From Flavobacteriaceae bacterium (lineage in GTDB: Bacteria > Bacteroidota > Bacteroidia > Flavobacteriales > Weeksellaceae): 64,000 bases of DNA. Every line of letters begins with the position of its first letter. Within the stretch, counting starts at the first letter, position 1. Under the pieces are notes generated by a model, which was not told where the DNA came from, made no database searches, and saw only the letters and a list, made by a program, of their open reading frames with translations. Positions 55,613 through 59,716 of this stretch are shown here, piece by piece. A program made the translations under genes and the position numbers. The stretch is taken from contig JAAYKY010000001.1 of NCBI GenBank assembly GCA_012522185.1, positions 1 to 64,000 on the forward strand, given 5' to 3'.

Positions 55613-57070
55613 ATGAGCAATACAAAATATACAGAAGACGATTTGAGACAGGATTTGTCGAGCCGAAAAGAATATGAATTTGGCTTTACAACCGATGTGG
55701 AATATGAAGAATTTCCCGTTGGCCTCAATGAAAATATCATTCGAGAAATCTCAAAACGTAAAGAAGAACCGGAATGGATGACCGAATGGCGCTTAGAAGC
55801 TTTTCGTGAATGGCAAAAAATGACCGAACCGGAATGGGCCAATGTTCATTATGAAAAACCAAACTTTCAGGACATTACCTATTATGCCGCTCCGAAAAAG
55901 AAACCGGAATTAGAAAGTTTAGACGAAGTGGATCCGGAATTGTTGAAAACCTTCGAGAAATTGGGGATTTCCATCGACGAACAAAAACGTCTGACAGGCG
56001 TTGCTGTGGACGTCGTAATGGACTCTGTGTCCGTCGCAACAACTTTCAAAGATACTTTGAACGAATTGGGAATTATTTTCTGTTCGATTTCCGAAGCAAT
56101 CAAAGAACACCCCGAATTGGTGAGAAAATACATCGGAAAAGTAGTTCCAAGAACCGATAATTTCTATGCGGCGTTGAACTCGGCAGTATTTTCAGACGGT
56201 TCATTTTGTTATATCCCAAAAGGCGTTCGCTGCCCGATGGAACTTTCAACTTACTTCCGTATCAACCAAGCCGGAACCGGTCAGTTCGAAAGAACTTTAT
56301 TGATTGCCGACGAAGGTTCTTATGTTTCTTATTTGGAAGGATGTACCGCACCGATGCGTGATGAAAATCAATTGCACGCTGCAGTTGTGGAACTAATCGC
56401 TATGGATGACGCCGAAATCAAATATTCGACAGTTCAGAACTGGTACCCCGGAAACGAAGAAGGAAAAGGGGGCGTTTTCAACTTTGTAACCAAAAGAGGA
56501 GTTGCAGAGAAAAACGCCAAGATTTCTTGGACACAAGTAGAAACAGGTTCGGCCGTTACTTGGAAATACCCGAGCTGTATTTTGAAAGGTGATAATTCCG
56601 TAGGAGAATTTTATTCGATTGCGGTTACCAATAATTATCAGCAAGCCGATACCGGAACCAAGATGATTCACATCGGGAAAAACACCAAATCGACGATTAT
56701 TTCCAAAGGAATTTCAGCCGGGAAATCCCAAAATAGTTATCGAGGACTTGTAAAGGTAAATGCAGGTGCAGAAGGAGCAAGGAATTTCTCGCAGTGTGAT
56801 TCACTTTTGATGGGGAATGAATGTGGAGCCCACACTTTCCCATACATCGAAATCAAAAACAAAACCGCTCAATTGGAACACGAAGCAACGACTTCGAAAA
56901 TCGGAGAAGACCAGTTGTTTTATTGTAACCAAAGAGGAATTGATACCGAGAAAGCGATTGCTTTGATTGTAAACGGATTTAGCCGCGAAGTGCTTGATAA
57001 ATTGCCAATGGAATTCGCCGTAGAAGCCAAGAAACTTTTGGAGATTTCGCTGGAAGGATCCGTGGGGTAA
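55613..57070 (+). CDS. sufB: Fe-S cluster scaffold subunit SufB
   Basis: This 485-residue SufBCD subunit shows the family landmarks: RSDNFYA-like [39 protein letters not shown] (with the persulfide-accepting cysteine region) and [11 protein letters not shown] near the end. The start at 55613 ([11 protein letters not shown]) is preferred, because an in-frame extension would overlap the preceding gene. It assembles clusters with SufC and SufD, encoded downstream beyond an inserted gene. Confidence 0.96.
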
Positions 57071-57073
57071 GTT

Positions 57074-57106
57074 AAGTTTAATGTTCAAGGTTTAATGTTT
57101 AAAGTT
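57074..57106 (+). repeat. AT-rich repeat block 5' of the four-helix-bundle gene
   Basis: The block is built from GTTTAA/GTTCAA words (AAGTTTAATG, TTCAAGGTTTAATG). Its end GTTTAAAGTT (57097-57106) is exactly inverted at 57512-57521, downstream of the gene. Confidence 0.6.
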
Positions 57107-57113
57107 AGAGCTT

Positions 57114-57494
57114 ATGGCAACAATTGAAAGATTTGAAGATTTAGAAATATGGCAATCAGCTCGTATTATTTCGAAGAAAATTCATCTTTTGTCTCTCGAA
57201 ACAGAACTGAAAAACGACTTTGGACTTAAAAATCAGATGAAGAACTCTTCAGGTTCTGTTATGGACAACATAGCCGAAGGCTTTGAAAGAGGAGGGAATT
57301 TAGAATTCAGACAATTTCTTTCCGTAGCAAAAGCTTCGGCCGGAGAGACGAGGTCACAATTATATCGATTATGGGACTTTGATTATATTAATCAAAAGAA
57401 ATTTGAGGAGTTAAAAATCGACTTAGAAAATTTAAGTGGAAAAATTCAAAACTTTATAAAAAATTTAAATAAAAATGATTTTAAAGTAGATTAG
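57114..57494 (+). CDS. Four-helix-bundle protein (23S rRNA intervening-sequence type)
   Basis: A 126-residue helical protein. It has the TIGR02436/S23-like pattern: RFEDLEIWQSAR at the start, KNQMKNSSGSVMDNIAEGFERG in the middle, and FLSVAKASAGETRSQLYR. Such genes occur inside 23S rRNA intervening sequences and as solitary genes in Bacteroidota. The molecular function is unknown. Here it interrupts the suf operon between sufB and sufC and is flanked by inverted AT-rich repeats, as a small insertion would be. Confidence 0.9.
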   Translation: MATIERFEDLEIWQSARIISKKIHLLSLETELKNDFGLKNQMKNSSGSVMDNIAEGFERGGNLEFRQFLSVAKASAGETRSQLYRLWDFDYINQKKFEELKIDLENLSGKIQNFIKNLNKNDFKVD

Positions 57495-57536
57495 TTTAAG
57501 TAAAACCTTTAAACTTTAAACTTTAACCTTTAAACG
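57495..57536 (+). repeat. AT-rich repeat block 3' of the four-helix-bundle gene
   Basis: Tandem CTTTAAA-type words (CCTTTAAACTTTAAACTTT, AACCTTTAAAC) form the inverse of the upstream block. The exact 10-bp inverted match is 57512-57521. Confidence 0.6.
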
Positions 57537-57543
57537 TACAAAA

Positions 57544-58299
57544 ATGTTAAAAATAAATAATTTACATGCTCAAATTGAAGACGGAGCAGAAATTTTAAAG
57601 GGAATCAATCTGGAAATCAAACCGGGAGAAGTTCATGCGATCATGGGCCCGAACGGATCCGGGAAGTCGACTTTGTCATCGGTAATTGCCGGAAAAGAAG
57701 AATACGAAGTTTCTCAGGGTGAAATCAATTTTGAAAACGAAGACCTATTGGAAATGGGACCGGACGAACGTGCCCACAAAGGAATTTTCCTTTCTTTCCA
57801 ATATCCGGTGGAAATTCCGGGTGTTTCAGTAACGAATTTCATCAAAACGGCGATCAACGAAACCCGAAAAGCACAGGGATTGGAAGATATGGGCGCTTCG
57901 GAAATGTTGAAATTAATTCGTGAAAATGCCGAAAAATTAGGAATTCGTAAAGATTTCCTTTCGCGTTCACTCAACGAAGGTTTTTCGGGCGGTGAGAAAA
58001 AGCGAAACGAAATTTTCCAAATGATGATGCTCAATCCGAAACTGGCCATTCTGGACGAAACCGATTCAGGATTGGACATTGATGCACTTCGAATTGTAGC
58101 AGACGGTGTGAACGCCTTCCGCAAAGAAAACAATGCGGTACTTGTAATTACGCACTACCAAAGACTTCTGGACTATATCGTTCCGGATTTTGTTCACGTA
58201 TTGAACGACGGTAAAATCATCAAAACAGGCGATAAATCTCTGGCTTTGGAGCTCGAAGAAAGAGGTTACGACTGGGTGATTGAAGAAGCAGCGATTTAA
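57544..58299 (+). CDS. sufC: Fe-S assembly ATPase SufC
   Basis: This 251-residue ABC-type ATPase powers SufBCD. Walker A is GPNGSGKST (about 36-44), the signature is LNEGFSGGEKKRNE, Walker B is PKLAILDETDSGLD, and the switch histidine is in VITHYQR. The length is normal. It restarts the operon 49 nt after the four-helix-bundle gene. Confidence 0.97.
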   Translation: MLKINNLHAQIEDGAEILKGINLEIKPGEVHAIMGPNGSGKSTLSSVIAGKEEYEVSQGEINFENEDLLEMGPDERAHKGIFLSFQYPVEIPGVSVTNFIKTAINETRKAQGLEDMGASEMLKLIRENAEKLGIRKDFLSRSLNEGFSGGEKKRNEIFQMMMLNPKLAILDETDSGLDIDALRIVADGVNAFRKENNAVLVITHYQRLLDYIVPDFVHVLNDGKIIKTGDKSLALELEERGYDWVIEEAAI

Positions 58300-58357
58300 T
58301 TATTTTAAAAGTTAAATTATAAAATTTAAATGAATTTAGAATTGGAAAACTGAGAAA

Positions 58358-58389
58358 TCTAACTTCTAATTTCTAACTTCTAATTTCTT
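58358..58389 (+). repeat. 14-bp tandem repeat in the sufC-sufD spacer
   Basis: TCTAACTTCTAATT occurs twice without mismatch (58358-58371 and 58372-58385) with a partial third copy. It fills most of the spacer before sufD. Confidence 0.85.
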
Positions 58390-58393
58390 AAAA

Positions 58394-59716
58394 ATGATAG
58401 ATTTAAAAGAAAATTTGGTTTCAAGACATTTGGTTTTCAATGAGAAAAATCCAAAAAATAAATGGATAGACGACCTGCGCCATGAAGCCATTGAAATATT
58501 CGGGAAAAACGGTTTCCCAACCAAAAAAGAAGAAGAATGGAAATACACCAATCTGGCACCTTTACTGAAAGCCGATTATAAATTATTTCCGGAATCCGAA
58601 GAAATTTCCATCGGTTACCAAGATGTAAAAAAGTATTTCATCCACGATATGGATACCTACAACATCGTGTTCGTAAATGGAGTTTACAGCAGTTATTTGT
58701 CTTCGACCACACATGAAGAAGCCGATATCTGTGTGCTTTCCAGCGCGATGAACAAAATGATGCATCAACCAGTCATCGAAAATTTTTACAGCAAAATTGC
58801 ACCGAAAGATGATAGTCTTGTTTCATTGAACACCGCATTTTTCAAAGACGGAGCTTATATTTATGTGCCGGATAAAGTAATTTTGTCCAAACCGATTCAG
58901 ATAATTTTCTTCTCCACGGCTCAGGAATCCGAAGTTTTGTACCACCCGAGAAACCTGATTGTTTTGGGAAACAATTCCCAGGCACAAATCATCGAAAGAC
59001 ATCAAACCCTGAATGAAAAAGCCAATCTGACGAATTCTGTTACGGAAGTTCATGTGGGGAGAAATTCCGAACTGGATTATTATAAAATTCAAAATGATGC
59101 TGTCGAAGCTTCTTTGATTGATAATACTTACATCGAACAAGAACGTGATAGTGTGGCTTCATTTCAGACATTTTCCTTTGGTGGGAAATTGACAAGAAAC
59201 AATCTGAACTTTGTTCAAAAGGGAGAAAATTCTAATTCAATCCTAAATGGAGTTACGATTATTTCTCGAAAACAACACGTGGATCATCATACAAAAGTTG
59301 AACATAAATTTCCACATTGTGAAAGCCACGAATTGTACAAAGGGATTTTTGATGAACAATCTCACGGTGTTTTTAATGGAAAAGTTTATGTTCATCCCGA
59401 AGCACAGAAATTAAATGCTTTTCAACAAAACAACAATGTTTTATTGACCGATAAAGCATCAATTGATACCAAACCGCAGTTGGAAATTTTTGCTGACGAT
59501 GTGAAATGTTCGCACGGATGTACGGTTGGACAATTGGATGAAAGCGCATTGTTTTATATGCAACAACGTGGAATTCCAAAAAAGGAAGCCAAAGCACTTT
59601 TATTGTACGCTTTTGCTGGCGAGGTCTTGGAACACGTTCAGCTTCCGCAAATCAAAAAGCGAATTGCAAATCTCATAGCAATGAAACTCGGAGTCAATAT
59701 GGATTTCGATTTATAA
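58394..59716 (+). CDS. sufD: Fe-S cluster assembly subunit SufD
   Basis: A 440-residue SufB paralogue. Landmarks are EEEWKYTNLAPLL near residue 55, HHTKVEHKFPHCESHELYKGI (in two parts), and the C-terminal VKCSHGCTVGQLDESALFYMQQRGI. It completes SufBCD. A strong terminator follows, so sufS and sufE are not part of this unit. Confidence 0.96.
   Translation: MIDLKENLVSRHLVFNEKNPKNKWIDDLRHEAIEIFGKNGFPTKKEEEWKYTNLAPLLKADYKLFPESEEISIGYQDVKKYFIHDMDTYNIVFVNGVYSSYLSSTTHEEADICVLSSAMNKMMHQPVIENFYSKIAPKDDSLVSLNTAFFKDGAYIYVPDKVILSKPIQIIFFSTAQESEVLYHPRNLIVLGNNSQAQIIERHQTLNEKANLTNSVTEVHVGRNSELDYYKIQNDAVEASLIDNTYIEQERDSVASFQTFSFGGKLTRNNLNFVQKGENSNSILNGVTIISRKQHVDHHTKVEHKFPHCESHELYKGIFDEQSHGVFNGKVYVHPEAQKLNAFQQNNNVLLTDKASIDTKPQLEIFADDVKCSHGCTVGQLDESALFYMQQRGIPKKEAKALLLYAFAGEVLEHVQLPQIKKRIANLIAMKLGVNMDFDL

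Follow-up and report, generated by a model that had tools for sequence, protein, structure and literature searches.

An IVP gene between inverted heptanucleotide arrays in a bacterial suf operon, and the same layout at other IVP loci

Bacterial genomes hold several kinds of small element with which the locus described here can be compared. REP/RAYT and MITE elements are small, palindromic and located in gaps, and a gene may or may not be part of them. Heptanucleotide repeats form another kind; those of cyanobacteria are named STRR. The heptads of Xanthomonas, GGGAATC, occur as inverted pairs (PMC4692102), and those of the Beggiatoaceae are of the type TAACTGA (PMC4679880). Bacteria are known to have an excess of heptameric repeats for which an explanation is lacking (PMC4692102, PMC4679880), and term searches within both papers returned no mention of S23, four-helix or 23S intervening-sequence proteins. 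The intervening sequences of 23S rRNA are the closest described system. Those of Coxiella, Leptospira and Brucella bear IVP genes, and the Coxiella sequence is excised by RNase III (PMC4990558). Finally, PMC10053308 points out a resemblance between PF05635, the IVP family, and Avd, a protein of diversity-generating retroelements. The open-access literature that we searched yielded no link between heptad repeats and IVP/S23 genes.

Our starting point was an IVP gene in the suf operon of a Flavobacteriaceae bacterium. We refer to the whole stretch of DNA analysed, 64,000 nucleotides (64 kb) long, as the window. Its relevant features are these:

55613-57070, + strand: sufB, the upstream neighbour (PF01458/PF19295 profile matches; ORF)
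57073-57104, + strand: left arm, tandem GTTTAAA-type heptads, sense strand G-rich (inverted repeat I1)
57114-57494, + strand: IVP gene (23S_rRNA_IVP, four-helix bundle, Avd fold), 126 aa (PF05635, TIGR02436, AlphaFold, Foldseek)
57507-57538, + strand: right arm, heptads in opposite orientation, sense strand C-rich (inverted repeat; lag-7 array)
57544-58299, + strand: sufC, the downstream neighbour (PF00005; ORF)
58357-58390, no strand assigned: second lag-7 array, TTAGAAG-type heptads in the sufC-sufD gap, no IVP gene (lag-7 scan)
58394-59716, + strand: sufD (ORF; used as query sequence)

The preliminary description of this DNA held that the gene separates sufB from sufC, and its coordinates were right: sufB stops at 57070, sufC starts at 57544, and the insert between them is 473 bp long. 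An ORF scan finds a single reading frame in the insert, 57114-57494, with no transposase or further ORF. The AT-rich borders of the gene, already described as inverted, consist of tandem 7-nt repeats arranged as two opposed arms, and an inverted-repeat search pairs 57073-57104 with 57507-57538 over 32 nt at 81% complementarity. The 10-bp inverted match noted at the outset is exact; GTTTAAAGTT lies at 57097-57106, its inverted partner at 57512-57521, and it is absent elsewhere in the 64 kb. Taken alone it is weak evidence, because 0.39 are expected by chance and a count of 2 was reached in 6 of 100 shuffles. What had been overlooked is that the blocks are locus-specific tandem arrays of 7-nt units, part of the heptanucleotide repeats scattered through these genomes. 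The insert shows the tandem 7-nt unit that defines such arrays and shares with STRR, GGGAATC and TAACTGA repeats a mostly intergenic position. Like REP/RAYT and MITE elements, it belongs to the small palindromic elements of gaps that come with or without a gene; unlike them, it has no transposase in the cassette, and its arms are repeat arrays that vary by locus.

We scored the flanks of IVP genes by comparing the upstream 110 nt with the reverse complement of the downstream 110 nt, with arms swapped between loci as the control. The flanks of the gene at 57114-57494 score 34 in inverted orientation, against a median of 15 and a 95th percentile of 24 for swapped arms. The host-family set, which includes 60 further places taken from a longer list, went from 138 IVP ORFs to 130 with duplicates removed, 116 with flanks and 109 at full length. 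At 80 of these 109 loci the inverted score lies above the swapped 95th percentile; the median is 32, compared with 15 for swapped arms and 16 for the direct comparison, and 72 of the 109 exceed all 12 of their own swaps. The arms match themselves at a lag of 7 (0.41 and 0.44 over the 109 loci, against 0.30 when shuffled), with more peaks at 8, 14, 16 and 21, and the repeat units are sometimes 8 nt rather than 7 nt. Ordinary genes seldom carry such flanks. In genomes with IVP genes 8/455 pass, with 0/72 among size-matched genes, and in IVP-free genomes the figures are 17/501 and 6/72. Swapped arms and ordinary genes together rule out pure chance or AT-richness as the source of matching flanks. 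Twenty-nine of the 109 host-family loci fail, some of them periodic but in direct orientation (L146 and L160).

The layout extends well beyond the host family. A Bacteroidota-wide sample of 33 IVP loci, 30 of them counted, has 20 above the swapped-arm threshold, and of 88 named loci, 82 counted, 52 lie above it. Passing named loci include one each from Atribacterota (L269, score 48), Pontiellaceae (L257, 35), Desulfosarcina (L266, 30) and Marinamargulisbacteria (L244, 29), while an Omnitrophota locus (L223, 24) fails; these labels are titles of MAG records or rest on single genomes, and misbinned contigs are possible. Eighteen plasmid records, taken from 28, gave 17 IVP ORFs: 16 cyanobacterial loci and one in Azospirillum. 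Nine of the 16 cyanobacterial loci pass a swapped 95th percentile of 28, with lag-7 matches of 0.48 and 0.45; an example from Nostoc edaphicum sets a GGGAGTA arm against a CCCTACT arm. Another cyanobacterial locus, L278, has a nearly identical heptad on both sides, but in direct orientation. The inverted heptad-arm layout of IVP genes is general and recurs in several bacterial phyla.

One check proposed at the outset was whether other copies of the family carry the same flanking blocks. They share the design, as the 80 loci attest, but not the sequence. Repeat words vary from locus to locus, and both arms of one locus agree. Upstream arms contain 23% G and 7% C, and downstream arms are the mirror image. 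Syntenic clusters allow the comparison to be made at a single site: 72 of the 109 loci fall in 15 clusters with both neighbours homologous, and because sites are shared across genomes to this extent, much of the inheritance of IVP genes is vertical. At these 72 loci, arms score 33.5 when both come from one genome and 20 when they come from the shared site of different genomes (p 2e-12, ignoring relatedness), a contrast that owes something to different IVP subfamilies sharing one site. Two Pontibacter loci, L205 and L212, share a site and encode IVP proteins of 75% identity; the arms are CAAGACA-type at one and TTAGATA-type at the other, both arms having changed. Such joint change would fit a process in which one arm of a hairpin serves as the template for its partner. 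Arm type follows protein similarity in close pairs only: of the 140 pairs that score above 130 bits, 20% share arms, and below 100 bits the share is 0-0.3%. Among non-syntenic pairs (88 of the 109 loci) a Mantel test gives no global relation, with 132 of 500 permutations reaching the observed value. Since copies at different sites rarely share arm sequence, elements of this sort would be hard to see by sequence comparison.

How close is the likeness to 23S rRNA intervening sequences? The preliminary description had drawn this comparison from the protein family and its inverted flanks, and it gained substance in a single case of a rRNA-embedded IVP gene with heptad arms. On plasmid p2 of Azospirillum lipoferum 4B, an IVP gene (L399) lies inside a 23S rRNA gene (RF02541) between inverted heptad arrays that score 47, where shuffled sequences reach no more than 23, with lag-7 matches of 0.56 and 0.67; 181 other places in the same rRNA gene score at most 17. 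No rRNA location was found among six other loci (L401, L257, L266, L244, L269 and L223). The window element resembles the rRNA intervening sequences in protein family, complementary ends and sense orientation. It differs in lying in a protein operon rather than an rRNA gene, with locus-specific tandem heptads for arms. On this comparison, the 473-bp insert appears to be the protein-operon counterpart of IVP-bearing 23S rRNA intervening sequences.

The explanation we favour, and to which we would give an even chance, is a hairpin element with the IVP gene in its loop and inverted heptads as its arms, spreading as a cassette while its arms are copied to match and its protein assists. Gene and arms would spread as a unit into operon gaps, where sense insertions alone would persist, and the hairpin would loop the IVP gene out of the host message. 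Slippage would multiply the 7-nt unit; strand switching in the hairpin would copy one arm onto the other. Because slippage and arm-to-arm copying would between them keep the arms matched, word changes would appear on both sides.

The main rival of the hairpin element is selection for the RNA stem itself. On this account we are dealing with an RNA-level element: a stem in the operon mRNA would be cut by RNase III, as in 23S intervening sequences, and the IVP message would be split from its neighbours. We think it rather unlikely, though several observations speak for it. The minimum-energy RNA fold pairs the arms at 90/109 loci compared with 52/109 when arms are swapped. The window segment folds with a z of -2.4, its complementary ends able to form a stem. 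Both neighbours run in the direction of the IVP gene at 91 of the 98 loci where this was determined, against 178 of 337 ordinary genes. Arms of the same kind stand in the Azospirillum 23S rRNA gene, and RNase III is the enzyme that excises the Coxiella sequence (PMC4990558, as above). However, where the arms fail to match, G.U-compatible types are not in excess (106 vs 136, counted at 94 of the 109 loci), and a stem has no need of tandem heptads. The earlier suggestion of a stem that joins the ends in RNA stands in so far as the arms can pair in the transcript; the mismatches lend it no help.

Heptads are also found without IVP genes, and their number is related to that of the genes. Counts of three heptad words over 60 host-family genomes sum to 1354 in the 51 with IVP genes and to 14 in the 9 without; one of the three was the reversed control of another and proved to be a heptad word too. 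The word count rises with IVP number (Spearman rho 0.70 over the 60 genomes and 0.72 on 33 genus means), with 22 within-genus pairs concordant and 6 discordant. In a set of 148 genomes of Bacteroidota, one or other of two words is present in 34/116 with IVP genes and in 0/32 IVP-free, 12 of these 32 being classed as IVP-free by absence from the IVP table. Samples of 20 kb gave no arrays in 640 kb from seven IVP-free genomes against 6 in 560 kb from six IVP genomes, 5 of these 6 in one genome (G080). Some observations run against the link: three IVP-free genomes contain a few TTAGA words (7 in total, 14 with the other two words), and in G030, with its 8 IVP genes, none of the tested words occurs. 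In 16 of the 60 genomes there are more than six words for every IVP gene, so many heptad arrays are gene-less. We read 20 such places, and none contained an IVP ORF; hairpins accounted for some of them and mosaics for many. The correlation of words with IVP number leaves the direction of cause undecided.

Might the heptads simply be ordinary intergenic slippage repeats, beside which IVP genes merely land or survive? Heptads are over-represented among bacterial simple repeats and polymerase slippage has been proposed as the reason (PMC4692102), and in some genomes arrays far outnumber IVP genes, as in G059 with its 205 TTAGA words and 4 genes. Against this, ordinary genes are without such flanks (the 8/455 above), and in the 64-kb window a lag-7 scan shows only two arrays, one being the right arm at 57507-57538 and the other lying at 58357-58390. 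Mutually matching inverted arms and their relation to IVP number would also be left unexplained, and we regard the idea as improbable. As a separate observation, at L359 (G035, contig 20) heptad arrays cross an apparent coding region for some 1.2 kb.

The suf operon offers a closer look at gain and loss. We read 30 automatic loci and 19 further stretches around sufB, out of 192 genomes with a match. Two relatives, G001 and G002, have the gene in the same sufB-sufC gap as the window. The congener G003 has the empty site that had been sought: a gap of 79 bp, without gene or repeats. Its closest homologue lies elsewhere, with a TRAM-domain gene on one side and a sigma-54 activator on the other. 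Together with blocks of the same design at other copies, the empty site supports the view, first taken from the window, that gene and inverted blocks form a cassette. The G003 gap has diverged too far for an alignment, and no target-site duplication was recognised at sufB-sufC. In other genera the window subfamily is placed upstream of sufB, in the sufB-sufC gap or downstream of sufC, and it also adjoins SpoU methyltransferase, DUF58, semialdehyde dehydrogenase and thiolase genes. Where close relatives occupy unrelated sites, they often share their repeat type: of the 18 non-suf loci of the window subfamily, 11 have at least two GTTYRA units in an arm, as do 12 of the 211 IVP loci that belong to other subfamilies (p 1.7e-8, the loci not being independent).

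Gene-less hairpins occur in both the sufB-sufC and the sufC-sufD gaps. In genus g21 several genomes have, at sufB-sufC, gene-less hairpins of other heptads or a more remote gene. Among L026, L027, L028, L029 and L034 of this genus, some have a more remote IVP-like gene whose arms are of the TTAATGAG type and others have gene-less hairpins, and L032 looks like a mixture of the TTAATGAG-type gene state and a gene-less hairpin. The sufC-sufD gap of the window (58300-58393) has TTAGAAG-type heptads, as does that of G002, and G001 has the GTATAAT type there, in no case with a gene. Because repeat type in this gap differs between G001 and G002, gene-less arrays seem to turn over within a genus.

A gene in this position invites the thought that it is kept since it acts with SufBCD, and the subfamily is indeed found in the suf operon of several genera, in three different gaps. 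Yet at the threshold used it is present in only 47 of 197 host-family genomes, and other IVP subfamilies show the same architecture in unrelated operons. We consider a partnership with suf very improbable and reject a suf-specific role, because the subfamily occupies five other sites.

What of the protein? The window protein matches PF05635 (23S_rRNA_IVP) with 103.6 bits (cut-off 33.8; E 8e-30) and TIGR02436 with 95.3 bits (cut-off 24). Its AlphaFold model has four helices and a pLDDT of 92.5, and in Foldseek it matches 2gsc (XCC0516 of Xanthomonas campestris, a genome with inverted GGGAATC heptads), with a TM of 0.85, and 2rld (BT_0352). More remote matches are 4dwl and 8ube, both Avd of diversity-generating retroelements, a likeness of fold. 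Against its two syntenic orthologues the window protein has a dN/dS of 0.08-0.09, and the 10 of 13 IVP orthologue pairs whose dS is finite lie at 0.05-0.15. With ratios this low despite synonymous change that is high or saturated, the protein is under purifying selection. Several IVP copies hold internal stop codons, and loss by decay therefore seems common. The window gene has no match among 50,697 phage records. Fold, conservation and the relation to repeat number suggest that the IVP protein is involved in the history of its arms. With the Avd-pentamer fold of retroelement complexes, it may bind the heptad arms and aid their pairing, copying or spread. That the whole is a retroelement moved by reverse transcriptase, as with Avd in its own elements, is scarcely credible and we reject it: the Avd fold and the orientation bias speak for it, but RVT_1 occurs in 13 of 60 host-family genomes, most IVP-rich genomes are without it (G009, G016, G031, G040 and G056 have none), and the window's own genome has no RVT_1 reverse transcriptase domain match, unlike diversity-generating retroelements.

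A bolder proposition, which we offer as a tentative possibility, is that IVP proteins are the trans-acting cause of bacterial heptanucleotide repeats. Each protein lineage would make, match and spread hairpin arrays; an armed IVP gene would be autonomous, gene-less hairpins its dependants, and rRNA intervening sequences the same elements caught in rRNA. More broadly, the link between IVP genes and heptad arms joins two old puzzles, the role of the IVP/S23 protein in rRNA intervening sequences and the excess of 7-nt repeats in many bacterial genomes, and it would mean that small elements with self-matching, fast-drifting arms sit in core operons. One further observation comes from the cyanobacterial plasmids, where IVP genes lie inside CRISPR operons (L278, L398 and L389), in the cas6/cas4 and cmr2/cmr3 gaps.
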